Assembly (NCBI RefSeq): GCF_003675385.1
Contig: NZ_RCWZ01000004.1
Span: 496,001 to 560,000 of the forward strand
Length of the DNA: 64,000 bases
From: Mucilaginibacter kameinonensis
GTDB lineage: Bacteria; Bacteroidota; Bacteroidia; Sphingobacteriales; Sphingobacteriaceae
Direction: 5' to 3'
Made by a program: the position numbers and the translations under genes
Notes under the pieces: generated by a model
Seen by the model: only the letters and a program-made list of their open reading frames with translations
Databases searched by the model: none
What the model was told of the DNA's origin: nothing
In this document: positions 39,063 to 64,000 of the stretch, piece after piece
Position numbering within the stretch: position 1 is the stretch's first letter
Layout of the letters: the number at the start of each line of letters is the position of its first letter

Positions 39063-39108
39063 TCGCAGGTATGATATAAAACTGAATTAAAACACTCATC
39101 GATTCATT

Positions 39109-39423: not shown

Positions 39424-39425
39424 TC

Positions 39426-41900: not shown

Positions 41901-42271
41901 ACTATTTAAAATCAGCAGTCCTTGGCTGTATGGCCCTGGCCGTGACCGCCTGTCAATCCACCAGTGACCATACAGTTACTGGCGTTTACGCTACCCGCTA
42001 CGAAAATGAATACGCTATGGGTAATGACACGATCATTGTCACCGCTTACAACCGATCAGCCCGTACCTACGAAATCGAAAAGCGGACCGGGTACCAGAAG
42101 ATCCGTCACGGCAAAATCCTGCCAAAGGAATATGCGCACAAAAAGTGGATGGCGCAATATGATCCTGAAAAACAAGTGCTCCAGGAAACCGTATTCGGCA
42201 GGCAGCTATTTCTGAACCCTGGCAAAAAAGAACTGACGATGGGCGAAACTCATTACCGGCGCGTGGAGTGA
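41897..42271 (+). CDS. Small lipoprotein of the tra operon
   Basis: A 124-residue lipoprotein with lipobox LAVTACQST (Cys near 19). The core has GVYATRYENEYAMGNDTIIV and YDPEKQVLQETVFGRQLFLNP, reminiscent of the small lipoproteins (DUF3876-like) found between TraG and TraI in Bacteroidota elements; I am not certain of that family. ATGA overlap with traG supports co-translation. It is probably attached to the outer membrane, with a possible channel or exclusion role. Confidence 0.75.
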   Translation: MNYLKSAVLGCMALAVTACQSTSDHTVTGVYATRYENEYAMGNDTIIVTAYNRSARTYEIEKRTGYQKIRHGKILPKEYAHKKWMAQYDPEKQVLQETVFGRQLFLNPGKKELTMGETHYRRVE

Positions 42272-42310
42272 TCAAGGGCCAGTCATCATTAAAAAAGGAA
42301 GGAGTTCATC

Positions 42311-42994
42311 ATGAAAAAAACGGGAATCATCCTAATCGTAACACTCGGCTTTTCATTGTTTTCGCTGCGACCGGAAAAGGCCCGGGCCCAGATTGCCGCC
42401 GCAGATGTCATCAAACTGACAGTGACTAAGGTCATCAAGGCCATCGACCTCAAAGTGCAGCGATTGCAAAACAATACGATCTGGCTTCAGAACGCCCAGA
42501 AAGTATTGGAAAACCAGCTATCCAAGCTGAGGCTTTCCGAGATCTCCGGCTGGTCCGGTAATCAGCAGCAGCTATTCAGCGGGTATTACGACGAGCTTTG
42601 GAAGATCAAAGCCGGCATTGCTTATTACCAGCGGATCAAAGACCTGACCGCCACCCAGGTGGCCATGGTCGGAGAATACAACAAAGCCTGGTCGCTGCTC
42701 CGGCAGGACAACCATTTCAATGCTGGCGAGATCAATCAGATGGAGGCTATTTACAATGGTATCCTTTCCGCCAGTCTCAAAAACCTTGATCAGCTGCTGT
42801 TGATCATCAGCAGTGACCGTACGCAGATGACGGATGAACAGCGCCTGGAGCTGATCAACCGGGCTGGCGACCGGCTCGATGAAAATTACAACGACCTGCG
42901 CAGGTTCAGTTCAGAAAACAAAATGCTCAGCCTGCAGCGCAGCAGGGACCTGGGTGATACTCAAACTATAAAAGCATTATATGGCATCGATTAA
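42311..42994 (+). CDS. traI: TraI-type conjugation protein, first of three tandem relatives
   Basis: A 227-residue exported protein with a signal peptide ending in ARAQ and long amphipathic helices. An AAGGAAGGAG stretch 8 bp before the ATG is one of the few strong ribosome binding sites in the window. The C-terminal pattern QMTDEQRLELI, then LRRFSSENKMLSLQRSRDLGDT and LYGI recurs in the two following genes. It is VirB5-like in character, probably a periplasmic or surface part of the channel. Confidence 0.8.
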   Translation: MKKTGIILIVTLGFSLFSLRPEKARAQIAAADVIKLTVTKVIKAIDLKVQRLQNNTIWLQNAQKVLENQLSKLRLSEISGWSGNQQQLFSGYYDELWKIKAGIAYYQRIKDLTATQVAMVGEYNKAWSLLRQDNHFNAGEINQMEAIYNGILSASLKNLDQLLLIISSDRTQMTDEQRLELINRAGDRLDENYNDLRRFSSENKMLSLQRSRDLGDTQTIKALYGID

Positions 42995-43673
42995 ACAGCT
43001 CAGGCATAAAGCAGGCAGGCTTGGGCAAAGGGCGCGGGCGCTGCTCCTCTTTTCATTCGTTACCGCTATCGCTTCCGGCATGGCGGCTGAAGCGAAAGCA
43101 CAGAGCTTCGCGGAATGGTTCCGGCAAAACAGCACGCAAAAAAAGTACCTGCTGCAACAGATCGCCGCGCTTCAGGTTTACGCAGGCTACCTGAAACAAG
43201 GCTACAGCGTGGCCCGCGGCGGGCTGGGCTCCATTTCCGGCTCCCTTACTGCTGAAAACCTTTTGCATGGCAGCTACTATAACCGCCTGGCCATTCCGGG
43301 ACAGGCTGTCAAAGACAACCCGCAGGTTGCCGAGATCCTGGTTTGGCAGCAGGATATCCTCGCATTGCTGGCCAGCACCGGACAGGTCCTGGGTTTAACC
43401 CAGGCCGAAAAGGATTATTTATCCGGGGTACGCTCGGCAGTCCTGAAAGACTGCGACCTGCAGCTGACGACGCTCCAGGCGATTATCAGAGACGGGCAAG
43501 CGCAGATGAGCGATGCAGAAAGGCTGGCGGGGATCGCCGGAATCCATTCGGCCATGCAGGATAATTACCATTTCGCCGCCTCCTTTTCCGCCCAGGTCAG
43601 ATCCTACGCCTTGCAACGGGCCCGGGAACATGGCGATGCACTGACAACCAGGGCGCTTTATAATATTAAATGA
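42981..43673 (+). CDS. TraI-like conjugation protein, second of three
   Basis: A 230-residue exported protein whose start overlaps the end of traI by 14 bp. After a signal peptide (about 15-40, ending in AKAQ) come helices and the same C-terminal pattern as its neighbours: QMSDAERLAGIAGIHSAM, SYALQRAREHGDA and LYNIK. Similarity to the third gene (alternating QIAALQVYAGYLKQGYSVARGGLG and MKTGYQIYQQGYGTIS) is stronger than to the first. Confidence 0.78.
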   Translation: MASIKQLRHKAGRLGQRARALLLFSFVTAIASGMAAEAKAQSFAEWFRQNSTQKKYLLQQIAALQVYAGYLKQGYSVARGGLGSISGSLTAENLLHGSYYNRLAIPGQAVKDNPQVAEILVWQQDILALLASTGQVLGLTQAEKDYLSGVRSAVLKDCDLQLTTLQAIIRDGQAQMSDAERLAGIAGIHSAMQDNYHFAASFSAQVRSYALQRAREHGDALTTRALYNIK

Positions 43674-43680
43674 ACCGGTT

Positions 43681-44328
43681 ATGAACAGATCAATAAAAAC
43701 GCTGGCGCTCGCCTTCATCCTAGCAGCGGCCCTGTTAAAAACAGGAAGGGCAAAAGCCCAGGAGCAGGAAATGCAGCAGCTACTACTGGATATCGAAAAG
43801 CTGACGCAGATGAAAAGTATCCTCTCGGACATGAAAACGGGTTACCAGATCTACCAGCAGGGCTACGGGACGATCTCCGCCCTCTCGAAGGGCAATTTCG
43901 ACCTGCATAACCTTTACCTCAGCGGCCTGCTTGCGGTCAGTCCCGCGGTAAGGAATTACGGCAGGGTAACGGAGATCCTGCTGATGCAGTCCCGACTGGT
44001 CAGCGAGTACAAAGAAAAGAGCGGACTGTTCCGAAAAAGCGGCAGTTTCTCCATCAGCGAGCTCAACTACATGGGCACCGTTTACGCCCGGCTTGTCTCC
44101 GAAACCCTGAACGACCTGGAGGAACTGACGAACATCGTCACGGCAGGCAAACTGCGGATGTCCGATGCCGAGCGCATCCGGGGAATCGACCGGATCTATT
44201 CGGCCAGCTCCGACAAGCTCGGGTTCCTCCGCTCCTTTAATGAACAAGGGATCATACTTTCTCTTCAACGGACGAAGGAGGCCGGCGACACCCGCTCGCT
44301 CAAACAACTTTACGGCCTGAACAACTAA
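43681..44328 (+). CDS. TraI-like conjugation protein, third of three
   Basis: A 215-residue exported protein with signal peptide ending in AKAQ, starting 7 bp after the preceding stop. It shares KMRMSDAERIRGIDRIYS-like and ILSLQRTKEAGDTRSLKQLYGL elements with the two upstream genes. Its own role is unknown; together the three could form a hetero-oligomer of the channel. Confidence 0.78.
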   Translation: MNRSIKTLALAFILAAALLKTGRAKAQEQEMQQLLLDIEKLTQMKSILSDMKTGYQIYQQGYGTISALSKGNFDLHNLYLSGLLAVSPAVRNYGRVTEILLMQSRLVSEYKEKSGLFRKSGSFSISELNYMGTVYARLVSETLNDLEELTNIVTAGKLRMSDAERIRGIDRIYSASSDKLGFLRSFNEQGIILSLQRTKEAGDTRSLKQLYGLNN

Positions 44329-44342
44329 AAAACTCCAATCTT

Positions 44343-45539
44343 ATGAAAAATAAACGGACGATTACCGCTTTAGCAGCGGTGGCAGGGATGATCTTTCCCC
44401 TGTTTTCCCACGCGGAAGGGCTCGCGGACGATATCCACGGCCTGCAGGGTACGCTCGACGGCGTTTACCAGGACATGCTGCCGCTCTGCGGCCAGCTGAT
44501 CGGCATAGGCCAGGGCACCGCGGGATTTGGCGCCTTATGGTATATTGCTGCCCGGGTCTACCGGCAGATCGCCAGCGCGGAGCCCATCGACTTTTACCCG
44601 TTGCTCCGGCCCTTCGCCCTGGGGCTGGCCATTTTGCTCTTCCCCGTAGTGATCGCGGTCATTAACGGCGTGATGCAGCCAACGGTCAGCGCGACCGGCA
44701 GCATGGTACAAAACTCGGACGCGGCCGTCGCACGGCTTCTCCAAGCCAAGGAGGATGCCATCAAAAAGACGAACTCCTGGCAGATGTACCAGGGCGAAGA
44801 TGGCAGCGGCGACCGGCAGAAATGGTATAAATATACCCATCCCGACGATCAGACCGGCAACAATGAGGGCATGTTCGAGAGTATCGGCAACGATCTCAAA
44901 TTCGCCATGGCCAAGGCCTCCTATAATTTCCGCAACACGGTCAAACAGTGGATGTCGGAAATCCTCCAGGTCTGCTACGAGGCAGCAGCGCTCTGCATCA
45001 ACACCATCCGTACTTTCTTCCTCATCGTGCTGGCCATACTGGGTCCGCTCGTCTTCGGGCTGTCCGTCTTCGACGGCTTCCAGCACGCGCTGACCTCCTG
45101 GCTGGCCAAATACCTCAACGTATTCCTATGGTTGCCGGTGGCCAATATATTCGGCGCGATCATCGGTAAAGTGCAGGAAAATATGCTGAAGCTGGATATT
45201 TCACAGGTGCAGGACACCGGCGATACCTTCTTCAGCTCAACCGATACGGCCTACCTGATCTTCCTGATCATCGGGATCATCGGCTATTTCACGGTCCCCG
45301 GCGTGGCCAATTATATCATCAGCCCCGGCGGCAGCCACGGCCTGCTGCATAAGGTCAATACCATGGTCATCAACGCCGGAAATACGACGATCCAGGCCGG
45401 TTCAGCTACCGGAGCAAGGATGCAGCAGGGCGCGACCAACCTTGTTAACGCCCCCGGCGATTTTATGAAAGGTTACAACAGCCCAGAACAAGAAGGACAA
45501 AAAGGTAATTACGAAGAGAAAAAGCTGTCGGGCCGCTAA
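44343..45539 (+). CDS. traJ: TraJ conjugation membrane protein (VirB6/TrbL-like)
   Basis: A 398-residue protein with a signal-like start and several transmembrane segments, in the patterns LLRPFALGLAILLFPVVIAV and FFLIVLAILGPLVFGLSVF, and a hydrophilic C-terminal tail rich in Gly and Gln. Such proteins form the inner-membrane platform of the channel. The family segment ADDIHGLQGTLDGVYQDMLP sits at the expected N-terminal site. Confidence 0.9.
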   Translation: MKNKRTITALAAVAGMIFPLFSHAEGLADDIHGLQGTLDGVYQDMLPLCGQLIGIGQGTAGFGALWYIAARVYRQIASAEPIDFYPLLRPFALGLAILLFPVVIAVINGVMQPTVSATGSMVQNSDAAVARLLQAKEDAIKKTNSWQMYQGEDGSGDRQKWYKYTHPDDQTGNNEGMFESIGNDLKFAMAKASYNFRNTVKQWMSEILQVCYEAAALCINTIRTFFLIVLAILGPLVFGLSVFDGFQHALTSWLAKYLNVFLWLPVANIFGAIIGKVQENMLKLDISQVQDTGDTFFSSTDTAYLIFLIIGIIGYFTVPGVANYIISPGGSHGLLHKVNTMVINAGNTTIQAGSATGARMQQGATNLVNAPGDFMKGYNSPEQEGQKGNYEEKKLSGR

Positions 45540-45569
45540 GTTATTTATTGACCATCAAACCGAAAGACT

Positions 45570-46190
45570 ATGTTCACCCATCTCAAAAATATCGACACCG
45601 CATTCAAACACATCAGGCAGTTCAGCATCTGGCTGACCGTCGCCAACCTGTTGTCAATTCTGTTCTTTATATACAAAAGCGGCCTGGCCGGCGCGGAAGC
45701 CCGCAACCGGGTGTATATCCTCCATAACGGAAGACTGCTGGAAGCAGGCGCATCAGAGCGCAGGGCCAACCTCCCGGTGGAACTGCGGGACCATATCAAG
45801 AACTTTCATGAAGCATTTTTCGACCTCAGCCCGGACGATAAAGCGATCCAGTCCAATGTGAGCCGGTCGCTCTACCTGGCTGACGAATCGGCCAAGCGGC
45901 AATATGACAACCTCCGGGAATCCGGGTATTACAACAACCTGATCTCCGCGAACATCTCGCAGGAACTGACGGTCGACAGCATCAGGCTGGAGGGTAACGA
46001 CTGGCCATTCACCTTTGCCTGTTATGCCACAGAAAAACTGGTGAGGTCCAGCGGTACAGCCTACCGCCGGCTGGTCACCCGCGGACAGGTAAGGAATATC
46101 AGCATCCAGACAGACAACAATCCTCACGGCTTTCTCATTCAGAACTGGGAAATATTATCCAACCGGGACACGACCCTTCAATCACACTGA
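45570..46190 (+). CDS. traK: TraK conjugation protein (VirB8-like)
   Basis: A 206-residue protein with a short cytoplasmic tail, one membrane helix (about 19-40), and a periplasmic NTF2-like domain carrying the family stretches LRDHIKNFHEAFFDLSPDD and NISQELTVDSI. TraK is the assembly scaffold comparable to VirB8. It lies 30 bp after traJ and 1 bp before traL. Confidence 0.92.
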   Translation: MFTHLKNIDTAFKHIRQFSIWLTVANLLSILFFIYKSGLAGAEARNRVYILHNGRLLEAGASERRANLPVELRDHIKNFHEAFFDLSPDDKAIQSNVSRSLYLADESAKRQYDNLRESGYYNNLISANISQELTVDSIRLEGNDWPFTFACYATEKLVRSSGTAYRRLVTRGQVRNISIQTDNNPHGFLIQNWEILSNRDTTLQSH

Positions 46191-46191
46191 C

Positions 46192-46530
46192 ATGTTCAAG
46201 TTCAAAAAGGATACACAAACCGAAACAGTCACCGGGGGCATCGCCGCAGGGATCGCTGACCAGATCCTCAGCCAGCAGCGCCGGATTGCTGCAAAACTGA
46301 ACAGGTGGGCCGGCCGCTACCGGGCCGACAAACAGAAAAGGTTCTTATGGCTGTTCTGCGCCCTGTTCATGCTCGCCCTGACCACCAGCCTGCTCCTTAC
46401 CATCCGGATAATCAAGCTGCCCAAACAGGATGGTCACTACCTGCCCGGACACATCGGCCGGGCCTCAGACATCCCGGGCGCAGTTGCGCCCTACCGGCCA
46501 TTAACCGATTCATCGACTTTAAAAAAATAA
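46192..46530 (+). CDS. traL: TraL-type conjugation protein
   Basis: A 112-residue protein with a basic N-terminus, one transmembrane helix (about 52-72; WLFCALFMLALTTSLLLTI) and a proline-containing tail. Named from its position between traK and traM and its size and topology. It starts directly after traK. Confidence 0.75.
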   Translation: MFKFKKDTQTETVTGGIAAGIADQILSQQRRIAAKLNRWAGRYRADKQKRFLWLFCALFMLALTTSLLLTIRIIKLPKQDGHYLPGHIGRASDIPGAVAPYRPLTDSSTLKK

Positions 46531-46535
46531 ACGTT

Positions 46536-47651
46536 ATGGAAAATCAAACCAAGCTGACCAGCCAATCCCCTAACCCTGCCGGGTTGCTGAAAAAAAGAAA
46601 GTTTTACCTGGCGGTTCCTGTACTGATCCTGCCTTTCCTCACCATGGCCTTCTGGGCGCTTGGCGGCGGAAAAGATACAGGCAGATCCGCGGCGGCACCA
46701 TCCAAAGGGCTCAACATGGCCCTGCCATCGGCCCAGTTCAAGGACAAACCCGAAAAAGACAAGATGGCTATTTACCGCTCCGCGGCAAAGGACACATCTT
46801 CCGGCGGAAACGGCGTCAGTAAAAGTTTTATCCAGGCGATGGGATTTACCCCAGGGACAGCCGGAACAACGGACAAGGCGAAAACGGCCGTTATCGGCCA
46901 GTCTGCATACTCCGCCAGCGCCGACCTGCAATCTGCCCGGATAACCGCCAAACTTGCCCAGATCAACCGGCAACTCAACCAACCGGCCCAGCAAAGCAAT
47001 TATTCCCCAGCGACACCTGATCCCCAGGTCAGCAGGCTGGACAAAATGATGAAGCGACTGAATACCCCTCCCGCCGAAGACCCGGAAATGAAGCAACTGG
47101 ATCAGATGCTCAGCAAGATCCAGGCGATCCAGAACCCGGAGCCTGTTAAACCCGCTGTCAGCCCAAAAGAAGAAAACGATTCCGCGTTCAGCGCGATCCC
47201 CGCGGTGGTCGACGGGAGACAGAAGGTCATCAACGGCGGCACGGTACGGCTGAAGCTGACCGATACGGTCACGCTGAAAGGGGTTTTACTGCCCAGCGGC
47301 CAGCTACTTTTCGGGGCCTGCCAGGTCATCAACCAGCGCCTGCTGCTGCATATCCAGAACATAAGGATCGGCAAAAGTATCCTGCCGACCGACCTGACAG
47401 TTTTCAGCCTGGACGGGATGCCGGGCATACCAGCCCCTGAGGCCGAGCTCGGTGAAGCGGCCGGAAGCGGCGCCGGTAACGCTATTGCCGGTATGCAGTT
47501 CCTGGGCATGGACCAGTCGCTGGGCACCCAGGCCGCGGCCGGCGGGATAAACGCGGCCAAAGGCCTGTTCAGCAGGAAAGTCAAAAAGATCAGGGTGAAG
47601 CTTGAGGACAATTTCGCCGTACTGCTCCGCGACAACACCCATAAAAAATAA
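46536..47651 (+). CDS. traM: TraM conjugation protein (VirB10-like)
   Basis: 371 residues from the ATG at 46536 (MENQTKLTSQ), 5 bp after traL; the upstream extension to 46305 covers traL in another frame and is rejected. One membrane helix (about 25-45), a long proline/glutamine-rich periplasmic linker with repeated RLDKMMKRLNTPP-like and QLDQMLSKIQ segments, and a C-terminal barrel domain starting at about 215 with SAIPAVVDGRQKVINGGTVRLKL. TraM spans the periplasm, linking both membranes. The usual next gene, traN, is missing. Confidence 0.92.
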   Translation: MENQTKLTSQSPNPAGLLKKRKFYLAVPVLILPFLTMAFWALGGGKDTGRSAAAPSKGLNMALPSAQFKDKPEKDKMAIYRSAAKDTSSGGNGVSKSFIQAMGFTPGTAGTTDKAKTAVIGQSAYSASADLQSARITAKLAQINRQLNQPAQQSNYSPATPDPQVSRLDKMMKRLNTPPAEDPEMKQLDQMLSKIQAIQNPEPVKPAVSPKEENDSAFSAIPAVVDGRQKVINGGTVRLKLTDTVTLKGVLLPSGQLLFGACQVINQRLLLHIQNIRIGKSILPTDLTVFSLDGMPGIPAPEAELGEAAGSGAGNAIAGMQFLGMDQSLGTQAAAGGINAAKGLFSRKVKKIRVKLEDNFAVLLRDNTHKK

Positions 47652-47657
47652 AAGTCC

Positions 47658-48728
47658 ATGGAAAAATCCCTGAACCGCGTCCTTGAAGCCTGGAAGAGCT
47701 GGGAGGACAAACAGACGCAGATGGAAAAGATTGCCGGCCCCGGCAAGGAGGAAGCCGCCGTGATCCGGCGGTTAAAGCTGGAGCATTTCCAAAAGGCCAG
47801 AAATTTGTTAGCCGGAAATTTACGAAAAGATGAACAGCCCTTCCTGCCGCTGATGAACGCAGCCATCAGGAAACTGGAGAAACAGGTCTATCCCAATATC
47901 CTGGCCCGGCTGTTCTTCCGGCTGAAGCATGCTTTGTTCGATGCACCCGCGCAGCTCAAAGCCCGTGAAACCGAACGCAGGGAGAACATCGAGAGCCTGA
48001 AAGCGGAACTGGTCAAAGCCGGCTTTAAAGATTTCGCGGTCAGACTGGAAGACCGGCTCGACCCGCAATCAGCCAGGCATAGCATAGCGCTGAACAGCCA
48101 GCTGGATCAGAACCGCAGCCTGGACGTTAACCTGATCTTTGAAAAAGATGCCAATGACCAGTTTCAATTCAGGGCCATCGCTGCCACTCTCAAAGATCAG
48201 CAGGGACAACAACCGGAACGGGCATTTCAGTTCTACATGAACGAATGGCCGGGCCTGAAAGCCGCCCACGTAAAAAACTTGCTGGAAGGGCGCGCTGTCC
48301 GGCAGGATTTTACGGATGTCAGCGGCCGGTCGAACAGCCAATGGCTGGAATTACCGGAAACCGGCACCCGGCTTAAAAGATATACCCAGGATTACGGCTA
48401 CGACCTGGCGAAGGTACTGCATGATCCCCAGTTCGGTCCGCTTCAAAGCCCGAACGGCATGGATTCCCTGATCGGGAAGCTGGAACAGGGGCATATGGTT
48501 CCGGTCAAATGGGCCCATGCCAATGGCCAGGAATTAGTTTACATCAAAGCGGACCCGGCCGGAGGCGGCATCAGCATGACCGACAGCATGCAGAAAGCGG
48601 TCCGGCCGGAACAACTGAACCAGAAACTGGAAAACCGGCAGGAAAAACAACAGGCAGTCATTAAACATCTCCACCAGCCACAGGAAATCAAACAGCAAAG
48701 AAAAAGGAGCCGGGGGATTAACCATTAA
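47658..48728 (+). CDS. DUF3945-type protein, one repeat module
   Basis: A 356-residue soluble protein. Residues about 113-205 hold a module beginning LVKAGFKDFAVRLEDRL, and the C-terminal half (about 190-310) has the DUF3945 landmarks LLEGRAV, WLEL and YGYDLAKVL. It is homologous to the C-terminal part of the next protein. No catalytic motif is evident. Starting 6 bp after traM, it takes the place where traN is expected. Genes of this kind are common on Bacteroidota conjugative elements; their task is not known to me. Confidence 0.72.
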   Translation: MEKSLNRVLEAWKSWEDKQTQMEKIAGPGKEEAAVIRRLKLEHFQKARNLLAGNLRKDEQPFLPLMNAAIRKLEKQVYPNILARLFFRLKHALFDAPAQLKARETERRENIESLKAELVKAGFKDFAVRLEDRLDPQSARHSIALNSQLDQNRSLDVNLIFEKDANDQFQFRAIAATLKDQQGQQPERAFQFYMNEWPGLKAAHVKNLLEGRAVRQDFTDVSGRSNSQWLELPETGTRLKRYTQDYGYDLAKVLHDPQFGPLQSPNGMDSLIGKLEQGHMVPVKWAHANGQELVYIKADPAGGGISMTDSMQKAVRPEQLNQKLENRQEKQQAVIKHLHQPQEIKQQRKRSRGINH

Positions 48729-48737
48729 ATTACAGCC

Positions 48738-50342
48738 ATGGACAGCAGCGTCAATTTTCAGGAATTAAAGGAAGAGCTCAGGGAGCTGGGTTTTTCAGAC
48801 CCGAGGGTGACCAACCGGGTAGGTGAAATGATCTTCAAACAGGATCATTACGGCTGGGTGATGAGCGACCTGCAGAAACATGGACAGGAGGAATCATACT
48901 TTATCTTCGATTTCGGGCGCGGCGACGACGGGCGGCTTAACCTCCTTTATTACGCGGGCCACCTGTCGGTGAACGGGGACCTCGGCAACGAGCGGTTCCA
49001 GCATTTCCTGCCCGGTGTCCCAGGGGTGCAGGCACTCCGGCTCCTGGATGAACGTGCCAAATACCCCGAACTCGACTTTAACAGCTGCTATACCCCGCTG
49101 AGCCTCAAAGAAGTCAAAATCAGGCTGGAAGCCTTTAAATTACCGGTCCCCCTGGAAAAAAAGCTCCAGCCCATCATGGTCCAACTGACCGAAACTGGTT
49201 TTAATGACCCCAATCTATGCAGGGCTCTGCAACAAAAGATCGAAGAACGGCAGGAGCGTTTTTACCTTGAATCGCTTTCACCAAGCGGCCGGCATGACAT
49301 TCTTTTTACGCTCAATTTTGCGCCTGATACCTCCGGCCAAACCCGCCTGGATAATTACCGCGGCTGTTTCGTATCCCAGGATCCGATTGCCCGGCAAAAG
49401 ACAGTATCCGAACTTTACCATCCCGCTATCGGTGAGCATTTCGAAGCCGCCGTCAACAAACAACTGGCCACAACACTGCTGGAAACCCGGCCGACCGTAA
49501 AACCATCGGGGTATTATTACAATACCCCTCCCCTGACCGATAAACAAGTAACACAACTTTTAAATCAAAATAGTATGAACACACAAAATGTAGAGTTTCT
49601 GAAGAACAGCCTGCTGAACCTGGGGTTCGGCGACAAGATCAATGACCTGCTGGAGAAAAAGATCCAGGCAAAAGAACCGGAGTTCGCCCTGCTGACCAGC
49701 ATGACCTATAACCAGAAAGATGTGGCCTATGCCCTGCACTTCAAGGCCGGAAACGAAGGCGACATGTACTTTTTCAACAAGTTCGATGCCGCCCTAAACA
49801 GCAAGCCCGACGAAAAACAAAGTTTCTACATCAATAAAGGCAATGGCATTACGGCCAAAGAAGCCTTTAACCTGATGGAAGGGCGCGCCGTACACAAGAC
49901 GCTTTTCAATAAAGAGGACGAAAAATACCAGGCCTGGCTGAAACTTGACGACGACAACCTGTCCCCCGGCGGCAATAAGCTCTTCAAGCGCTGGAACGAG
50001 AATTATGGCTTCGATGTGGAAAAAGTGCTTTCCGGTAAAGGCATCAAAGAAATGGCGACTGCGGAAGGACAGGAAGCCCTGATCAAATCCTTAAAAAAAG
50101 GAAACGCGCAACAGGTCACCGTTGATATCAACGGCAAAGAACAAAAATTCTTCGTAACCGCTAACCCCCAGTTCAAAACCGTGGATGTATTCGATAACAA
50201 AATGAAAAAGGTCAAACGGGAGGAACTATTGCAACCGGAACAAAAACAAAGCAACAGCCAAAAACAAGACAACAAACAAAACCAGGGAAAGCAGCAAAAG
50301 GAGGAGCTGCCTGCAAAAAAGCAGAAGAGAGTTAAAGTATAA
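48738..50342 (+). CDS. DUF3945-type protein with three repeat modules
   Basis: A 534-residue soluble protein containing three related modules, each opening with a helix ending in GF plus a polar pair: LRELGFSDPRVTNRVGEMI (about 12), LTETGFNDPNLCRALQQKI (about 151), LLNLGFGDKINDLLEKKI (about 291). The third module runs into the DUF3945 domain (LMEGRAV, YQAWLKLDDD, YGFDVEKVL, FFVTANPQFKTVDVFD). A lysine/glutamine-rich tail closes it, suggesting nucleic-acid contact. It is the last gene of the tra transcript, which ends at the terminator 50353-50389. Confidence 0.72.
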   Translation: MDSSVNFQELKEELRELGFSDPRVTNRVGEMIFKQDHYGWVMSDLQKHGQEESYFIFDFGRGDDGRLNLLYYAGHLSVNGDLGNERFQHFLPGVPGVQALRLLDERAKYPELDFNSCYTPLSLKEVKIRLEAFKLPVPLEKKLQPIMVQLTETGFNDPNLCRALQQKIEERQERFYLESLSPSGRHDILFTLNFAPDTSGQTRLDNYRGCFVSQDPIARQKTVSELYHPAIGEHFEAAVNKQLATTLLETRPTVKPSGYYYNTPPLTDKQVTQLLNQNSMNTQNVEFLKNSLLNLGFGDKINDLLEKKIQAKEPEFALLTSMTYNQKDVAYALHFKAGNEGDMYFFNKFDAALNSKPDEKQSFYINKGNGITAKEAFNLMEGRAVHKTLFNKEDEKYQAWLKLDDDNLSPGGNKLFKRWNENYGFDVEKVLSGKGIKEMATAEGQEALIKSLKKGNAQQVTVDINGKEQKFFVTANPQFKTVDVFDNKMKKVKREELLQPEQKQSNSQKQDNKQNQGKQQKEELPAKKQKRVKV

Positions 50343-50352
50343 ATTCATCACA

Positions 50353-50389
50353 AGAGACTGTATCATTTGATTTATGATACAGCCTCTTT
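50353..50389 (+). terminator. Intrinsic terminator of the tra operon
   Basis: CTGTATCAT (50358-50366) and ATGATACAG (50374-50382) make a perfect 9-bp stem with a 7-nt loop, extended by AGAG/CTCT across one mismatch, and TTT follows. It lies about 10 bp after the last tra-operon stop. Confidence 0.75.
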
Positions 50390-50396
50390 ATTAGAA

Positions 50397-50439
50397 GTGC
50401 GCCCACCTGAACTCGAACCCTGGACCAAAAAATTATGAG
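50397..50439 (-). pseudogene. tRNA 3'-half remnant with CAT anticodon (possible att scar)
   Basis: Read on the minus strand, the anticodon loop CTCATAA leads with exactly 17 nt between anticodon and T-loop to TTCGAGT, then 12 nt and an A at the discriminator position. Those lengths are canonical. Stems no longer pair well (T-stem CAGGG against TCAGG; anticodon stem lost) and no D-arm precedes, so it is not a functional tRNA. Such 3' halves are typical traces of integration at tRNA genes. CAT would be Met or Ile2. Confidence 0.5.
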
Positions 50440-50661
50440 CGTAAAATAATATCGTTTCCTTTAGAAGTAAAACCATGTTCATCGGTTTACAAGAGCTAAT
50501 TTAAACTATCTAGTCCAATGGAAAAGTGATGAAATATGAACCTTCGGTAATCGACAGCCAACTCGATCTTTTTCGACTCACGGCAATCGCATCCACAACC
50601 TAGCTGGTATTTTAACGGTCAAAGCTTTCTGCAAAAATCTGATAACATTCATTTTCATATC
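50440..50661. other. Intergenic region between the tra operon and the defence island
   Basis: Together with the terminator and tRNA remnant, the gap is 319 bp. After 50440 the sequence is AT-rich and I see no further gene, repeat or promoter that stands out. Confidence 0.5.
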
Positions 50662-51186
50662 ATGAAAAATATAAAATCGATTGATTCATTACTTGGTGTT
50701 AAGCTTGCTGACTGCTACTTTAGAACGCACTTCCCTTTTGATGATGATCAAAAGATTAGATTTAAAATGGGCGTATTCTTAGAAGCCGTTGAGGATCTGG
50801 GCCGGCCGAAATTAATACCTCTGGTTAAGGATATCGCTGAAATGCTGATCACAAGCTCAAAAAACAGTGATAAACAAGACGGATTCGATTTAGAAAGGCC
50901 TATGAGAACCTTAGCAAGTATTGTTCGCCCATCCGATGAGGACTGGATCTTAAGCAAATTGGGGGAAACTGACTTTGGTCCGGGGCTTGAATTTCCTCAA
51001 CTTAGGCAGGCAATAGAATGTTTTGCGCGCATCGGAAGCATAAAATCTTTACCATATATACAAAAGGTTGCTATTGAGCATAAAGAAAAAACCTATGTCC
51101 CGAATGTATGTCAACTTGCATATGAACAGATCTGTAATCGTGAAAAAACATCGAAGGCAAAGGATATTTTAACGGCCAAACTATAA
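50662..51186 (+). CDS. Unknown all-helical protein, possibly HEAT-like
   Basis: A 174-residue soluble protein with regularly spaced amphipathic helices, such as PKLIPLVKDIAEMLI and FPQLRQAIECFARIGSIKSLPYIQKVA, a pattern resembling HEAT-type repeats. No known family or catalytic motif is recognised. It starts the region of lower GC right of the tra operon and is convergent with the nuclease gene 14 bp away. Confidence 0.6.
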   Translation: MKNIKSIDSLLGVKLADCYFRTHFPFDDDQKIRFKMGVFLEAVEDLGRPKLIPLVKDIAEMLITSSKNSDKQDGFDLERPMRTLASIVRPSDEDWILSKLGETDFGPGLEFPQLRQAIECFARIGSIKSLPYIQKVAIEHKEKTYVPNVCQLAYEQICNREKTSKAKDILTAKL

Positions 51187-51199
51187 TTAGACTCAGCTC

Positions 51200-52684
51200 C
51201 TATTGAACTTTATCGGCCAAAGTCCCTTCCGAGGGTGGCTTGTTTTCCCAAGGTTCCTGCATGCCAGGAAGTAAAAGCACCGGAATTATTACACTTTTAT
51301 ACCCTTTTGTCATTGGAGCCAAAAATAACCGCTCATTAAAAGATGGCGAGATCAATAGGCGCTCGTTATTTTTTATTTTCAGATTAAGGGTCGTCTCCAG
51401 TTCCACAATGCCCAGGGTTTTTAGAAAATATTTATTCAAAGTCTGATTCTTATAATCGCCGGCAAAACGTTCCATCATCTTCTGGAGTAGATACGATCTA
51501 CCCAGCTCATTCACCTGCTCATCATGCTGTCCCCCTCCCTTCCTCGAATTAACCAAAATAGGATCCGGATGGATTGCTCCTGTCAATGCGGACGGCGACC
51601 ATTTCATTAAACTAATGTAGTCCGTATAATATGCTTTTTTGATCTTCAGGTCACCCTGTATTTTCATGACCGCTTTGAAAAACCTTTCGTCGATTAGTTC
51701 CTGATATTCAGGGGAACCCAGTACCAGCAAAATGACGCTCTCTTTCAGAAACAGTTCAAAAAACCTCAGGGTATGTTTGATCGTGCCATTTCGTAAGTGA
51801 GTGCGAAGCGTAAATTTACCGTTTCCGGCCAGGATAATACCAGCATCGGATATTGTCCCAATGGCCTCTCGGATATCTTCTTCAGAGATCTTACCGGTCA
51901 CCGGCCTTACTTCCTGGATGGATTTCCTGCTGAGCATGTATTTCATGTCAACCGGCCCTTTGGCGACGAGCAAAATCGAAAGCACATATTTAACGACCGA
52001 AAGCATGCGCAGGCGTTCGGTCTCTTCGGCGCGCAGATCAACGTAATTGCGATAGACGGTATTTTGCACCACAAGATCTGCCAGCATTTTAGCCGGTCGT
52101 GCATCTAATGAACGTCCATCGGCTGAAAATATGGTAAAACTTTCGTCACTGAATACAAGCAGCCAGTAGCAAACTTTCTGGTAGTAAAGTATCTCGCTTT
52201 GAATGACCGCCTTCGAAGTCAGGCTTTTTGCTACCATTATCAATTCCGCTACAGGTAAAATATTGTCTTTAGCGCGCAGAGCCCGGAGCAGGTCCTCGCC
52301 ATCGATGAGCTGAATACCCTCCCCGCAGTTGGACAGATTTTTATAATGCCCATGTACATTGCCGTTAACGCCGTTCAACGCGATAAAACAACCCTGGATA
52401 TTTTTCGCTTGCCCGTGCTCTTTGGCGTAAAGCTTCCCAAGGAATTTCAGCCAATCAGGGATACCCAAAGGGGTCTTATAAGCTTTACATTCGCAGATCA
52501 CCTCATGAAAGATAACCTTGGCTACGCCGGGTTGCCGAAACCTCGCGCTGACGTCGATCTCGTCCCCTCCCGCTCCAACTTCGTTGGTAACCACTTTTTC
52601 GTATCCGAGATGGCCAAGGATATATTTAGTGAGTTCTTCCAATTGATGGCCCTTATCGTCCGTATTTTTTCCGAGGATGATCAT
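51200..52684 (-). CDS. Mrr-like restriction endonuclease fold protein
   Basis: A 494-residue protein. The N-terminal domain (about 8-115) has the PD-(D/E)xK nuclease core: E16/E17 in the first helix, D44 in GGDEID, and E65-C66-K67, in the order expected for Mrr-type enzymes. The long C-terminal part (about 180-494) contains a helix-turn-helix-like stretch (EEDIREAIGTISDAGIIL) but no recognised motif; it may sense or bind a target. It is divergent from the OLD nuclease gene with a 231-bp gap, and could be a separate defence gene or a partner. Confidence 0.72.
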   Translation of the reverse strand: MIILGKNTDDKGHQLEELTKYILGHLGYEKVVTNEVGAGGDEIDVSARFRQPGVAKVIFHEVICECKAYKTPLGIPDWLKFLGKLYAKEHGQAKNIQGCFIALNGVNGNVHGHYKNLSNCGEGIQLIDGEDLLRALRAKDNILPVAELIMVAKSLTSKAVIQSEILYYQKVCYWLLVFSDESFTIFSADGRSLDARPAKMLADLVVQNTVYRNYVDLRAEETERLRMLSVVKYVLSILLVAKGPVDMKYMLSRKSIQEVRPVTGKISEEDIREAIGTISDAGIILAGNGKFTLRTHLRNGTIKHTLRFFELFLKESVILLVLGSPEYQELIDERFFKAVMKIQGDLKIKKAYYTDYISLMKWSPSALTGAIHPDPILVNSRKGGGQHDEQVNELGRSYLLQKMMERFAGDYKNQTLNKYFLKTLGIVELETTLNLKIKNNERLLISPSFNERLFLAPMTKGYKSVIIPVLLLPGMQEPWENKPPSEGTLADKVQ

Positions 52685-52915
52685 GTCAGGTTTAGCTTAT
52701 ACAGTATATAAAATGTAATATTAAATAAGGGGCTGCGAAAAACCTAAATAATCAATGGCATTCTGCGATGATTAGTCAAAACTGCTAAAAACTGGTTTGA
52801 TTACACCACAGTTTTTCATTTGGCCGGACGGATAAATGCTTTTCTTATGATGTATAAGGATATGATTTCAAAAAATAAATATCTTTATTCTTGTTTATAG
52901 ATCTTATCCCTTATT
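52685..52915. other. Divergent promoter region between the Mrr-like and OLD-nuclease genes
   Basis: This 231-bp AT-rich gap must contain promoters for both directions. On the plus strand TATCTTTA (52880-52887) and TATTCTTG (52886-52893) are near matches to the -7 consensus, 23-36 bp before the OLD start. No clear operator is seen. Confidence 0.4.
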
Positions 52916-54760
52916 ATGTTTTTAGTAAACCTGAAGCTTTGGAATTTCCGAATTTTCGGAAATAACAAACCGTTTGACCTGCTCCGTCCCCACCTGAATC
53001 TCACCTTTAATCAAGGTATCAATGTATTAATCGGTGAAAACGATTCCGGGAAAACCGCGATAATCGATGCCATTAAAATCGTTCTAAAGACGCATAGTAC
53101 AGAATGGATAAGGGTCGAGGAAGAAGATTTTTTCCAGGATTCCGAAAGGTTCAGGATCGAATGTAGGTTTAAAGGCTTCACGGATGACGAGGCCAAATAT
53201 TTTACGGAATGGCTGGATTGGGAGACTGGCCCAAATGGAGGAGAACCCTACCTGACTGTTTATTATGACGTATCCCGGCGGAACGGCAGGATCATGCCAA
53301 CGGATATCAAGGCAGGTATAGATGATACGGGCCATGTCATGAATGCAGAAGCAAAGGAGATGCTACGCACGACATACTTGCGCCCGTTGAGGGATGCCAA
53401 AAGCGAACTTTCGCCCAAACGTAATTCCAGATTATCCCAGATCCTTTATTCGCACAAAGCCTTTCAAGATAAGAAAAATCACAGGCTGATCACCCTGGCC
53501 AAATTACTGAATGAGGAGATCGCTGGCTACTTCAAAGGACAGAGCGCGGACGGTCAAAGCCTTACGTCCGAGAATGACCTACTGGGCAAGGATGTTAAAG
53601 AAGTTATAGACGAATACCTGAGGCGGTTTTCTAACAAGTCGACAGAATTTAAAATGACGCGTGCCGAACTCAAAGGTATCCTCGAATCTTTAAGCTTGTT
53701 GTTCCAGGATGGCTATAACCTTGGACTAGGTAGCCACAACCTGCTTTGTATCGCCTCAGAGCTACTTCATCTCAAAAAGAACAACTGGGATGGCCTTCGT
53801 CTGGGTCTGATCGAAGAGATTGAAGCGCATCTCCATCCCCAGGTACAGTTACAGGTGGTCGAAACACTGAAGGCACATTCCGCCGATATGCAGCTTATCT
53901 TTACCACTCACAGCCCAAATATCGGTTCAAAGATTCCCTTGGAAAACCTGATCATCTGCCACGGTGGCAAAGTTTTCCCGCTCCGGAAGGGGACTACCGA
54001 ACTCGACGACGAAGATTACCAGTTCCTGGAGATATTCCTCGACACGACTAAGGCCAATCTATTTTTCGCCAAGGGGATAATCCTGGTCGAGGGTTGGGCG
54101 GAAGAGCTGCTGGTTCCTTCCCTCGCCAAAGCTATCGGAATTGATCTTACAGCCCACGGCGTTGCCATTATCAATGTGGGTAGTACCGCATATCTAAGGT
54201 ATTCGAAGATCTTTCAAAGGAAAGAGGCCCCGTTGATGGAAATCCCCGTCGCTATCGTTACTGATGTGGATATCAGAACATATGAAAAATCGCAAAAAAA
54301 GGATGCCGCCGGTAAACTGGAGCTGGATACTGAGGGAAAGAGCACTTACGTTTACATCAAACGGGATGGTCCGACAGTCGAATCAGAAACCAAAGCCGCG
54401 GTTAAACAAAAGGACGAATCATCGGGGATCATTCAGTACTACATCGGTGACAAATGGACCCTGGAATATGCCCTTTACCATTCGGAAGCTTTGCAAGTGT
54501 TGTTTAAGGAACTTGCGGAAAAAGTACACAGTAAAACGGACTGGAAAACAGGCTGGGAGGCCAAGCTTGCGGAAAAGCTGATCGAGAAACGGCTTGATAA
54601 AACGGAGATCGCCTACCGGCTGGCAAATACGATCAATCAGCACCTCGTCAAAGACCCTGAGCGGCTGCTCTCCCCTTTAAAAGAAATAAACCTCGCCGAT
54701 AGCGATTCGGATGCTATCGGCTATCTGTTAAAAGCCATTAGACATGCCTCAGGAAATTAA
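52916..54760 (+). CDS. gajA: OLD-family ATPase/TOPRIM nuclease (Gabija GajA-like)
   Basis: A 614-residue protein with an ABC/SMC-type ATPase half and a C-terminal TOPRIM nuclease. Walker A GENDSGKT lies at 40-47, the Walker B-like EEIEAHLHP near 300 and the switch histidine in TTHSP near 328. The TOPRIM glutamate is in LVEGWAEELLVP (about 391) and the metal-binding aspartates in TDVDIRTYEK (about 449). OLD proteins followed by a UvrD-like helicase are class 2 and define the Gabija anti-phage system, where GajA cuts DNA when nucleotide levels fall. The next gene overlaps by 17 bp. Activity in this strain is inferred. Confidence 0.85.
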   Translation: MFLVNLKLWNFRIFGNNKPFDLLRPHLNLTFNQGINVLIGENDSGKTAIIDAIKIVLKTHSTEWIRVEEEDFFQDSERFRIECRFKGFTDDEAKYFTEWLDWETGPNGGEPYLTVYYDVSRRNGRIMPTDIKAGIDDTGHVMNAEAKEMLRTTYLRPLRDAKSELSPKRNSRLSQILYSHKAFQDKKNHRLITLAKLLNEEIAGYFKGQSADGQSLTSENDLLGKDVKEVIDEYLRRFSNKSTEFKMTRAELKGILESLSLLFQDGYNLGLGSHNLLCIASELLHLKKNNWDGLRLGLIEEIEAHLHPQVQLQVVETLKAHSADMQLIFTTHSPNIGSKIPLENLIICHGGKVFPLRKGTTELDDEDYQFLEIFLDTTKANLFFAKGIILVEGWAEELLVPSLAKAIGIDLTAHGVAIINVGSTAYLRYSKIFQRKEAPLMEIPVAIVTDVDIRTYEKSQKKDAAGKLELDTEGKSTYVYIKRDGPTVESETKAAVKQKDESSGIIQYYIGDKWTLEYALYHSEALQVLFKELAEKVHSKTDWKTGWEAKLAEKLIEKRLDKTEIAYRLANTINQHLVKDPERLLSPLKEINLADSDSDAIGYLLKAIRHASGN

Positions 54761-56702
54761 GATCACGGACGAACAGATTAGGCTCTCCGAAGACATTTTA
54801 CTGCCAGCGTCCCGACATTTTGATAACGAACGGTTGGATTTTATCAAAGATCTGGGAACATTCGACCTGCATGCTGTGCCCGGAAGCGGCAAAACGACAG
54901 CTCTGCTTGCCAAGCTGCTTGCCCTGGAGCAACATTTGCCATTTGAGGACGGATCAGGCATCCTCGTTTTATCGCATACCAATGCCGCTGTAGACGAGAT
55001 CCGAAACAAGATCGGATCCTTGTGTCCTCGTTTGTTCAACTGTCCGAGTTTTGTCGGCACGATCCAAAGTTTCACAGACCTGTTCCTTACGATACCTTAT
55101 TACAAGATCGTTTACCGGAAAAGACCGGTCAGGATCGATGACGACATTTACCAAGAACACCATCATGTAGATTACGGTTTTCAGAAATGGCTTGATAACC
55201 GGCCTGGCGACGGCAAAAAACTTTTGCACGACTATCGCCTGAGAGACGGAGATCAGCTTACATTTAGACGAACCACGGATGCTTTTCCATTCGGGAAGAA
55301 AACCAAATCATTCCAAACGATCCTCGCACTCAAAAAGAAGCTAAGAGAAGAGGGTTTCATCTGTTATGACGATGCCTACATCCTCGCCATGGAATACCTC
55401 GATAAATTCCCGAGGATGATTAACATTATCAATAAGAGGTTTAAGTATGTCTTCGTTGATGAAATGCAGGACATGGATGCCTATCAGTATGCGCTGTTGG
55501 AAGTCCTGTTCTGTCAGGCGCGGGATGTCGGTTACCAGCGGATCGGCGATAAAAATCAATCCATTTACAGCAATGATGATGCGCTGCAAGCCATCTGGGA
55601 GGAACGTAGCGTTAAAGAATTTAATGGTAGCCACCGGCTACAGCCCCTGGTTGCGGCGATGGTCGAACCATTGGCCATCAACCCAATCCCCATCAAGGCA
55701 CAAAAAACGAACGTGGACGGGAGCCCCATCAATATTAACCCTATCCTATTTGTGTATGACAATGATACTATTGAAGAAGTGATCCCTTCGTTTGCTAGAG
55801 AGATCAAAAAACTAGCAGACAGCCGACTAATTGACACGCAAACGGAACACACCTTTAAGGCCATTGCCTGGACTACGCAAAAGGATGGCGATGATCGCAA
55901 CATATTTTGCCTCAACCATTACCACCCCGATTTTTCCAGGGAACAGCAAAAATTACAGATTAATTACCCTTGTCTCGAAAGTTACTTGCATTATTTTACT
56001 CCCGGCACAAACAAGCTGGCCTCGATTCGGAAAAGTCTACTGAACGGCCTACTGCGCGTTCTTCGTATCGAAGGTATATCCCACCCACATACCGGGCGAA
56101 CTTTTTCCAAAAGATCTTTCCTGGATTATTTAAAAATAGAACACCCGGAGTCCGAACCCAGATTTAAACTTTTTGTATTCAAATGTTCTAAGATGGTAGC
56201 GGAAGGTCAAATCCCCCAGGCTCTGAGATTTTTCTCCAGAGGAATTGAAGCCTCCCTGCAAAAATTCGGGACGACCATAAAACATTCAAGAGGGTTCATG
56301 ACCACAAGTCATGAAGGAAAAGCACCAGTCCTGGATACAAGCCCATCTGCCACCACCGTAAATCAATATATCCAGGACGGAATTGTGATCGACGTGGCAA
56401 CCGTACACTCGATTAAGGGACAGACTCATACCTGTACTCTGTATATGGAAAGCTTTTATCAGGCCAACGTTGGCAAAAAAGGCCAATATGAATCCACCCG
56501 GATCGCGGACCAGTTAAAGGGTATCGCAATTGATGAAAAGACACACAAATACATCAAACAGTCCCTGAAAATGGCTTATGTGGGTTTCTCCAGACCTACA
56601 CATCTCCTGGCATTTGCCATCCACCGTTCGAGATATGACAGCCACTATGCCGGAACGGATATGGTAAAAAAATGGGACGTTAGGGTGGTACATAAAAAAT
56701 AA
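54744..56702 (+). CDS. gajB: UvrD/Rep-like superfamily 1 helicase (Gabija GajB-like)
   Basis: A 652-residue helicase with all main SF1A motifs: I (AVPGSGKTT near 45), Ia (LSHTNAAVDEI), II (VFVDEMQDMD near 235), III (GDKNQSIYS), V (VHSIKGQTH) and VI (YVGFSRPTHLL). It overlaps the OLD nuclease gene by 17 bp, which marks it as the GajB partner. At 652 residues it is longer than the GajB protein of the original Gabija system (about 490), with extra sequence around 350-520. In Gabija, GajB is thought to sense or feed on DNA ends and nucleotides and to activate GajA. Confidence 0.83.
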   Translation: MPQEIKITDEQIRLSEDILLPASRHFDNERLDFIKDLGTFDLHAVPGSGKTTALLAKLLALEQHLPFEDGSGILVLSHTNAAVDEIRNKIGSLCPRLFNCPSFVGTIQSFTDLFLTIPYYKIVYRKRPVRIDDDIYQEHHHVDYGFQKWLDNRPGDGKKLLHDYRLRDGDQLTFRRTTDAFPFGKKTKSFQTILALKKKLREEGFICYDDAYILAMEYLDKFPRMINIINKRFKYVFVDEMQDMDAYQYALLEVLFCQARDVGYQRIGDKNQSIYSNDDALQAIWEERSVKEFNGSHRLQPLVAAMVEPLAINPIPIKAQKTNVDGSPININPILFVYDNDTIEEVIPSFAREIKKLADSRLIDTQTEHTFKAIAWTTQKDGDDRNIFCLNHYHPDFSREQQKLQINYPCLESYLHYFTPGTNKLASIRKSLLNGLLRVLRIEGISHPHTGRTFSKRSFLDYLKIEHPESEPRFKLFVFKCSKMVAEGQIPQALRFFSRGIEASLQKFGTTIKHSRGFMTTSHEGKAPVLDTSPSATTVNQYIQDGIVIDVATVHSIKGQTHTCTLYMESFYQANVGKKGQYESTRIADQLKGIAIDEKTHKYIKQSLKMAYVGFSRPTHLLAFAIHRSRYDSHYAGTDMVKKWDVRVVHKK

Positions 56703-56753
56703 AAATATCCCGATCATAAGGGAGGGTTTTACTTCCCCCTTGACAATAAACTG

Positions 56754-59700
56754 ATGAATATTTACCTTACCGTTCGCAGCATTCCTTCTTCAGATCTCAT
56801 GAAAACCGAAACTAAACCTGAAAACCAACCATTTAAAGAATATTATATTCAACCCATCCTTAATATCGTTGACGAGTTTGCAGATATCAATGATCCGGAT
56901 GCTTTCAAGCGTTATTTTTACAGACGGGACCTTCCATTCGAGGACCATATTTCCACAATTCTGGAAAGCCGGACCAGTTTTATCATCGGGGAGCCTGGTT
57001 ATGGGAAAAGCAGGCTTATCCAGGAGCTATGCAAGCATACACCTGGAGATTATGTGCGTTTTGATTGCAGGGACCTTGACCCACAGCAGGGACTTATAGT
57101 TGAACAAAACATAAAATACCTTTTTTTTGACGGCCTTGATGAAGTTGCTCCAGTAGCTTTTCTGGGAATACTTGATAGCATCAGGTCGATTATTGCCAGC
57201 CGTCCGGATTGTTCGGTTAGTATTGCGTGTCGGACCCATTACCTCGAACGCGCGAAAAGCTATCTCGTTAATTTCAAAGGGGCTAAATATGTACAGGTCA
57301 CCCCTTTTAACCATACTCAAATCTGGCGATACCTGCTGAACTACTTCAGCAACATAGATATTGCCGATGCTATTTATTACCGGTCCCGCAGTATTTCTGG
57401 AACGTCAGTCCTGCAAACACCAAGATATCTGGAGGCATTTGTAAAAGCTGTCCTGAACGAAAATATCAGCCGCGAAGAAATCAGGAACATGGCGACAACC
57501 GAGATTTTCGAGCGGGTTATTTATTTCCAGCTCAGGACCGAGCTCAAGAAAGCCAAAGAAAGTGCTGCACCACTGAAAGAGAAAAAGTTCAAGACCACCG
57601 TTCGGGAAGTCTTGTCCTATATAAAAGCATCCAATCAACCTAAAGAAAACTCAAACGAGCTTTATATTACGCAACGGGTACTTGAAAAACTGGCCTTCGT
57701 AATGGAAGTCTACCAGCGGACCCGGATCACGATGCAGGAACTGGTGACCTTTTTAGATAATACGGAGTCTAACATTAACCTAATATTCCTGCAATACAGC
57801 AGCGTGGATAAGTTTATTGAACGCACGCTAAAGAAAACCAATGATACCGTATCCTTTGAGCACAGTTCCTTTCAGGAGTACCTGGCTGCGAAGGAACTGG
57901 TACGAATGGGGGACTCTGCACAGGTTATTTACGATCTAATCCTGGAGAAAGACCTACAACTTATTTATCCCAACTGGCTAGACGTTTTGCAGTACGCCAT
58001 CGAGCTTGATGCAGAAAAAATCGCTGGTGCTTTATGTAATTTCCTGTCAGATAACGTTTCCCGTCAATTTGATGAAAAACTAGTCAATATACTCATGGGA
58101 CCCGGTATTGAACGGGCCAGTAATATAACCAAAGGCAGACTTTTCAACACCATTTTTAAGCACTACCAGTTAAGCGGCAGGTATTTATACCAGAAAAATG
58201 ATGCCCTTGCTGTTTTATTTGCCGGGCCGGCAGATATATCCCTTTTGGCTGTCCCGGATTATAAGGACTTCGACACCAATAATATCCGGCAACTGACAAA
58301 CTTGATCTTAATGATTAGTAGTCTGAATAAAATCGGGGTACTGCCGTCGGAACTTCATGAGTGCTGGAAAACGTTTATCATGGATCATATCCAAAATGGT
58401 CAGTTAAAAAACGAATACGAGATCTTATTTTTCGGGCTAGAGCATCTTGAAGCTTTTTCAGAGATCAGGGGGCTGGGCGATTTTATTGTGGGAATGGATG
58501 ATGGGCATATTGCCGCTTATCTTGATACCCTGTCACGGATCGGACCAGACCAAAGTTTACCCTTTTTCTTAAAAATTGTATCCGGCAGGCCCAACGTAAA
58601 GCGCAAAGATCGATTCTTAGATTCCATGAAGACAGAAGCCGGGATCGTCGAAATACTTCAGTTACTCATCAATGATGAGACTGCTCGTTCCAGTATTTTC
58701 AATCACCACTCCAGTTCTGTCGAATTTTATTCCTTGCCAGAAAGTATCAGGGAGCTTAAAAGTGATCCCCTTCTTAAACTGATTGAAAAAACGCTTTATG
58801 CACTTTCCGGGGATGAAGATTATGTCGACTACCCTAATAACTTGGGGCATCTTATGGAGCGGCTAGTTGCTTATCTCTTGGTTGACAGTAAGAATTTTAT
58901 GAAGCGGCTGTTACAGCGCCCAAATTTTGAAGAGATTATCCAGGAAACATCTGAGCCCTTTGCTTTAAATATGAGCGAAGCACAATTCAAGTCCCTTTTT
59001 CAAGCCCTAAGCAAACAGCGCAGAGGTAATTTCTTATTGACCCGGTTGATCAGTCACTTAAAAGTCACAGGAATTCCTGAAAGAAAAAAACTACTTGATA
59101 AACTACGTGCCAGTTACCCAATGTTTTTTCATGAACACAAAGTGTCTCCAAAAGAAATGGAGGAGGCGGAACAAATGGAAAAAGAAAAACTGTACCGACA
59201 ATTCGAAAAACGGCTAATGAAGGGTACAGCGGACGTGCAACAGTCGGTATATAAGTTTTATTTTGACAACAAGGAGAAATTGCAGGATCTGGTAACGTCC
59301 GATGATATCAAAAAAATGACCGACATTGTAAGGTCAGTGGTAGACAGAGTAAAGCCTGAAAGTTTTAAGGTCCGCATAGAAAGGCAAGGCAGTACTGTAA
59401 ACTATAATGTCAATGATACAAGCTGGTATAATTTCGGGTATTTTCTGAATGCAGCGATAGAGTTTGGAATGGAAGATCTGATAGCACGAAACCGCCGAAA
59501 AATTATTCTACATCTCCCCATGATGAATGAAAAAGCAGCTACCGGTTATGGACATCCTGGTAAATTTGCAAAATTGATAGGAACGGTAACGCCGGAAGAG
59601 GTATCAGACCTGCTTGCTTTTTGTACAAATCGCAATGATGATTACCTCTACAGCGCAGTTTCAAGCTTTACTGATTTTATTGCGGCCAATCGTTTATACG

Positions 59701-60923: not shown

Positions 60924-61058
60924 GAGGAATTACATAAGGCCAAGCTGGCATTATTTACTTGAACTCCAGAACGGTGACCGCTGGACAACAAACTGCCAAT
61001 TTTTTTATATTAGCCGCCTGTCATCTACTTATGCAGAGGGCATTAAACCAAATCTATC

Positions 61059-61907: not shown

Positions 61908-61983
61908 TTATTCTCGGTTTACTCAATTATATCGGCAACCTAGAGAGATAAAAATCCTGTGATTTCAAGGTTGCTTTTGAAAT

Positions 61984-62055: not shown

Positions 62056-62056
62056 A

Positions 62057-62908: not shown

Positions 62909-62939
62909 TACAATTAAATCGCAAACTAAAGTCAAACAC

Positions 62940-63371: not shown

Positions 63372-63420
63372 CAGCCTGACTATTAATTGAAAGTTTAGTC
63401 GTTTCCGAATTATTCGAGAA

Positions 63421-63999: not shown

Positions 64000-64000
64000 A

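Follow-up and report, generated by a model that had tools for sequence, protein, structure and literature searches.

A displaced tRNA-Met(CAT) 3′ half as the probable border of a decayed element carrying defence genes in Mucilaginibacter kameinonensis

What is a 43-base stretch resembling half a tRNA doing between a tra operon and a cluster of defence genes in Mucilaginibacter kameinonensis, and how did it come to be there? We analysed the 64,000-nucleotide stretch of DNA that contains it (the window, G000:C8:496001-560000; plain positions below are those of the window), where G000 is the genome of 7.33 Mb in 13 contigs and C8 the contig concerned. A preliminary description had taken the 43 bases for the 3′ half of a CAT tRNA with decayed stems and no 5′ half, left behind at an old integration site.

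The 43-base stretch and its tRNA match

The fragment occupies positions 50397 to 50439 on the minus strand, and its letters, read from 50439 to 50397, are CTCATAATTTTTTGGTCCAGGGTTCGAGTTCAGGTGGGCGCAC. BLAST aligned it without gaps to the 3′ half of the intact tRNA-Met(CAT) of the same genome, from the anticodon loop to the 3′ end, with 38/43 bases identical (E 2.6e-8) and with alignment limits that coincide exactly with 50397-50439. The intact gene, found by ARAGORN at G000:C9:548604-548678 on the minus strand, is located on a different contig. When the 320 bases around the fragment were searched against their own genome, two matches were obtained, namely the fragment itself and C9:548604-548646 (88%), the latter covering exactly window positions 50397-50439. 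The alignment score of 30.5 compares with 15 for the runner-up tRNA (30 tRNA loci compared, of 55 found). The search for an intact CAT tRNA with the same 3′ end, proposed in the preliminary description, thus found its gene, and the assignment to a CAT tRNA 3′ half is borne out.

Of the five changes relative to tRNA-Met, four affect the T-arm and the fifth falls on the 3′ side of the anticodon stem, while neither the anticodon loop nor the 3′ strand of the acceptor stem differs. The decay ascribed to the stems therefore holds for the T-arm and for one anticodon-stem base but not for the acceptor 3′ strand, which is intact. Over the 32 bases that adjoin the fragment 5′, agreement with the 5′ half of tRNA-Met is just 7/32, so the 5′ half is absent, as had been claimed.

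ARAGORN made no tRNA call in the whole window and an Rfam search found no tRNA at the fragment even at E 10; hence, the fragment is not a tRNA gene. Apart from this silence of Rfam, we found nothing in favour of a reading in which the fragment is a chance resemblance or a tRNA-like control element, and we regard that reading as extremely improbable. In eight simulated first-order Markov genomes of 7.33 Mb each, scanned on both strands, the best match of this type reached 26 to 29 of 43 bases, which we take as the chance ceiling. The observation stands because 38/43 was found against a simulated genome-wide maximum of 29/43, and this difference, together with the match to the tRNA-Met of the same genome, refutes such a reading.

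The defence island and the second copy

The tra operon (38718 to 50342, plus strand) is located on the 3′, outer side of the fragment and encodes a DUF4134 protein, the TraG P-loop protein, TraJ, TraM and neighbours, ending with a gene for a 534-aa protein. The TraG, TraJ and TraM homologues in one operon are genes of the Bacteroidetes conjugative-element type, with a predicted role in transfer. A terminator-like hairpin (50358 to 50382, plus strand; one found, 0.2 expected) is situated between the end of the operon and the fragment. On the 5′ side of the fragment lies a defence island, C8:546440-573991, whose left part fills positions 50440 to 64000 and which continues beyond the window. Its first ORF (50662 to 51186, plus strand, 174 aa) has no Pfam or PADLOC family and is followed by an Mrr_cat restriction-endonuclease-like protein of 494 aa (51200 to 52684, minus strand). 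Next comes a predicted Gabija pair of adjacent genes on the plus strand, GajA (ATPase-TOPRIM; 52916 to 54760; E 5.7e-218) and GajB (UvrD helicase; 54744 to 56702; E 4.8e-218); a NACHT-domain protein of 1389 aa (56754 to 60923) and a second Mrr_cat protein of 283 aa (62057 to 62908), both on the plus strand, also lie in the part within the window. The island further contains Septu (PtuA, PtuB), a radical-SAM protein whose similarity to the viperin type is weak, and a GmrSD-type protein. The G+C content is 0.437 in the island and 0.534 in the tra operon.

The island of ~27.6 kb is bracketed by the fragment and by a second copy of it, outside the window, at C8:573992-574034 on the minus strand (34/43). 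This copy, 27.6 kb to the right of the first and in the identical orientation, is the sole other strong match in C8:476001-700000. Over a run of 31 positions it departs from tRNA-Met once, but its last nine bases agree at 2/9 and its 5′ side matches the tRNA-Met 5′ half at 8/32, i.e., no 5′ half exists; the Rfam tRNA score there is 21.6 bits, under the cut-off of 29. Because of the missing tRNA 5′ half and the divergent last nine bases, the second copy is not a clean attachment site. The second flanking copy that the preliminary description had called for is thus present in the same orientation, but as a partial match. The genes to its right encode an ECF sigma factor and a non-specific endonuclease. 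The fragment is built like a displaced attachment site, and the second partial copy closes a bracket around the defence genes, so that an element border between the tra operon and the island, as first suggested, is supported.

A pattern search of the whole genome (21 bases, up to three mismatches) gave seven matches, comprising the second copy, the intact tRNA-Met, four within Rfam tRNAs (two of them called tRNA-Asn) and C9:511843. The last belongs to a further tRNA-like 3′ stretch, C9:511839-511881, which carries no tRNA call; ORFs near it resemble mobilization genes, a label assigned by eye.

No tyrosine integrase was found between the two copies, where none of the five PF00589 hits of the genome falls; nor did 14 integrase or integrase-like queries, run with tblastn, reveal the remains of one in the island. 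The segment C8:567067-567243, 59 codons with 85% identity to the tail of a broken integrase-family ORF in the relative G151, was considered as an integrase fossil and dropped because the intact homologue in G117 ends differently and the matched tail is not integrase sequence.

tRNA-Met elements in the genus

The tRNA-Met query matches 147 of 149 same-genus genomes. Among the matches listed, at least 15 displaced copies without the 5′ half occur in at least 14 genomes, and we read 15 of them (in G035, G018, G024, G010, G027, G117, G151, G141, G170, G086, G073, G119 and G161, and two in G026). Identity to the 43-base block of tRNA-Met was 43/43 in 13 copies and 42/43 in two. All 15 start at the same point as the block in our window, i.e., at the anticodon loop CTCATAA (50433 to 50439, minus strand), which may therefore be the crossover region; on the 5′ side of the block, the identity to the tRNA extends for 0 to 12 nt further. 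In eight genomes (G024, G010, G027, G035, G117, G151, G141 and G073), an intact tRNA-Met is situated 1.5-29 kb from the displaced copy on the same contig, and the orientation is the same in 8/8.

The neighbourhood of the intact tRNA-Met was read in 29 genomes, and in 13 of them a member of a single tyrosine-recombinase BLAST cluster of ORFs, in some cases truncated or cut, lies 3′ of the tRNA. Pfam tyrosine-recombinase domains were detected in four cluster members, one of which has the SAM-like domain only. Among 61 proteins scanned from four tRNA-Met elements, we found four integrase SAM-like domains, two relaxase domains and several defence-type families. The element of G010 (C2:3574501-3599464, 25 kb) has an intact tRNA-Met at one end and a displaced copy at the other, and contains an integrase-cluster ORF, a relaxase-like protein, Gabija relatives and a GmrSD-like protein. 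Its identities to the island proteins are 49% for GajA, 33% for GajB and 26% for the GmrSD-type protein. It thus resembles the island in its tRNA-Met bounds and in its Gabija and GmrSD-like cargo, but differs in being at the tRNA, in retaining an integrase-cluster ORF and a relaxase-like gene, and in having a GajA that is just 49% identical.

Gabija occurs in 4/149 genomes (E 1e-90), and one of the three other than G000 has it inside a tRNA-Met element; the loci in G143 and G095 have no tRNA-Met copy within 40 kb. As a marker of tRNA-Met elements, Gabija was set aside, four of 149 genomes being too few for a test. Displaced copies also occur far from the gene. G086 and G170 have remote orphan copies 0.2-0.3 Mb from the intact tRNA-Met, and in the one-contig genome of G026 a remote copy (C1:5873749), far from tRNA-Met, is followed 3′ by an integrase-cluster ORF.

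Origin of the fragment and alternative readings

The window, with both copies, lies in a 238-kb accessory segment, C8:436663-674806, that the two closest relatives found, G013 and G031, lack. In these two, respectively, 4.3 and 2.3 kb separate the matches to C8:436,662 and mnmE (C8:674,807), instead of 238 kb in G000. Inside the segment are also mob-type genes (C8:608699-613553) and a single integrase (C8:672795-674036), which adjoins mnmE and is 24-25% identical to two tRNA-Met integrases; a relaxase and a coupling protein of the segment lie ~60 kb from the tra operon. We also looked for a displaced mnmE 3′ end at the left edge of the segment, and the search returned mnmE alone. The end of mnmE in G000 differs from that in G013 and G031 in the final bases.

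The intact tRNA-Met keeps its usual neighbourhood. Fifteen of the 29 genomes read, including G000, have a HAD hydrolase gene 5′ of it, and G013 and G031 share the 5′ context of G000, with surrounding proteins mostly 92-100% identical. Directly 3′ of the gene, ~4.8 kb (C9 about 543700-548600) are missing from G013. Because tRNA-Met keeps the relatives' neighbourhood elsewhere and both G013 and G031 lack the 238-kb segment, the 43-base stretch probably arrived with mobile DNA, and no tRNA gene is likely to have stood there. The idea that one formerly did finds no support, the intact gene being on another contig in its usual neighbourhood and the window in the accessory segment.

We consider it likely that an integrative element with the 3′ half of tRNA-Met(CAT) as attachment site has decayed here and that the fragment marks one of its ends; the fragment would be a probably dead site displaced from its native tRNA. 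By analogy with established tRNA-integrase biology, the tyrosine recombinase of such an element would recombine at the tRNA-Met anticodon loop, the 3′ half borne by the element would restore the tRNA, and the old 3′ half would be displaced to the far end, which is the anatomy observed in the relatives. By the same analogy, the element would sit 5′ of the displaced 3′ half. Because the island adjoins the fragment on its 5′ side, a polarity as in the relatives, the island would be the element, the tra operon the DNA that it entered, and the second copy its other end. The target was probably not a tRNA gene, since a tRNA 5′ half is missing from both copies and the genuine tRNA-Met occupies another place; it was probably a pre-existing 3′-half copy or a look-alike in the larger accessory segment that ends at mnmE. 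The integrase would have been lost since. In favour of this explanation we count the tRNA-Met match with its identical limits, the chance ceiling of 29/43, the second copy, the displaced copies and integrase-cluster ORFs of the relatives, the G010 element, the defence genes that fill the interval, and the lack of the 238-kb segment in G013 and G031. We count against this explanation the absence of an integrase from the island, the imperfect second copy, the missing empty site, the Gabija loci of G143 and G095 without tRNA-Met, and the 24-25% identity of the mnmE-side integrase. The comparison with empty-site strains put forward in the preliminary description did not yield the predicted junction, as no relative read joins the two flanks and a search with the neighbouring proteins showed no synteny in the relatives. 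A tblastx comparison of the island and the right flank with four loci that have related tra operons gave zero hits. In G013 and G031, a nested empty site is invisible because the whole 238-kb segment is missing there.

An unlikely alternative reverses the roles: the fragment would end the tra-bearing conjugative element, which carried a tRNA-Met 3′ half in its circular form and inserted at a secondary site, so that the 3′ side (tra) would be element and the 5′ side would not. A restored site has the element right after the tRNA 3′ end, where the tra operon indeed lies; the remote copy of G026 has its integrase-cluster ORF 3′ of it; and ICEs of Flavobacteriaceae and Weeksellaceae use tRNA-Met-CAT, according to the portion of PMC12561888 consulted. 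However, no integrase exists 3′ of our fragment, whereas the relatives have one ~200-360 nt from the block start, and none of the homologues of the last tra gene at four Mucilaginibacter loci is followed by a tRNA-Met 3′ half. The second copy and the bracketed defence genes would also be left unexplained.

We assign a small probability to the reading that homologous or illegitimate recombination brought an old tRNA-Met attachment piece into the 238-kb segment without any site-specific insertion. The imperfection of both copies, which lack the 5′ half and an integrase, would suit it, as would the remote orphan copies in relatives such as G086 and G170, but two copies in the same orientation flanking one defence block would then be a coincidence. 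Smaller still is the credence that we give to a broader idea, that orphan tRNA 3′ halves on the conjugative elements of the genus act as landing pads where defence islands dock, rather than on the chromosomal tRNA, and co-travel; the two copies here would be an occupied pad, and an orphan piece of tRNA-Arg(TCT) at C9:330003-330055 an empty one. No tra or mob homologue was found beside the seven tRNA-Met copies not seen within 30 kb of the intact gene (G018, two in G026, G086, G119, G161 and G170; flanks read over ~1 to 7 kb), which disfavours this idea.

The families Flavobacteriaceae and Weeksellaceae belong to the same phylum as the genome studied. For these families, tRNA-Met-CAT is reported as an ICE site with a 17-bp repeat (PMC12561888, in the part consulted). 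By the same partial account, the decayed element preferred here is like the ICECleSHZ29-type ICEs in its target, tRNA-Met-CAT, and in the use of the 3′ end of the gene, but the repeat is 17 bp there, compared with a block of 43 bp from the anticodon loop here, and that ICE carries resistance genes, whereas the island carries defence genes and no integrase. More generally, displaced tRNA 3′ fragments mark the ends of genomic islands in tRNA genes (the Islander principle, as set out in the part of PMC4383910 consulted). The common feature, on that outline of Islander-type islands, is a tRNA 3′ fragment at the far end of the element, with the intact tRNA opposite in eight relatives; in contrast, both ends are decayed fragments in our case, and a different contig carries the intact tRNA. 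The scar class is thus textbook, and the fragment is a new decayed example away from its tRNA. A literature search on tRNA integrative elements of Mucilaginibacter produced no paper, from which it does not follow that the site is unpublished. The fragment supplies a physical border for a defence island, and the relatives indicate tRNA-Met(CAT) as a recurrent integration site across the genus, where at least one intact element carries this type of defence system. If the nesting is true, the locus would clearly illustrate how a defence island rides within a larger accessory segment that bears conjugation genes.

A displaced tRNA piece of another kind occurs in the same genome. The orphan 3′ part of tRNA-Arg(TCT) at C9:330003-330055 agrees with the intact gene on C6 at 52/53 positions and adjoins a relaxase and a TraJ homologue, and an integrase beside tRNA-Ser(TGA) is located ~22 kb from it.
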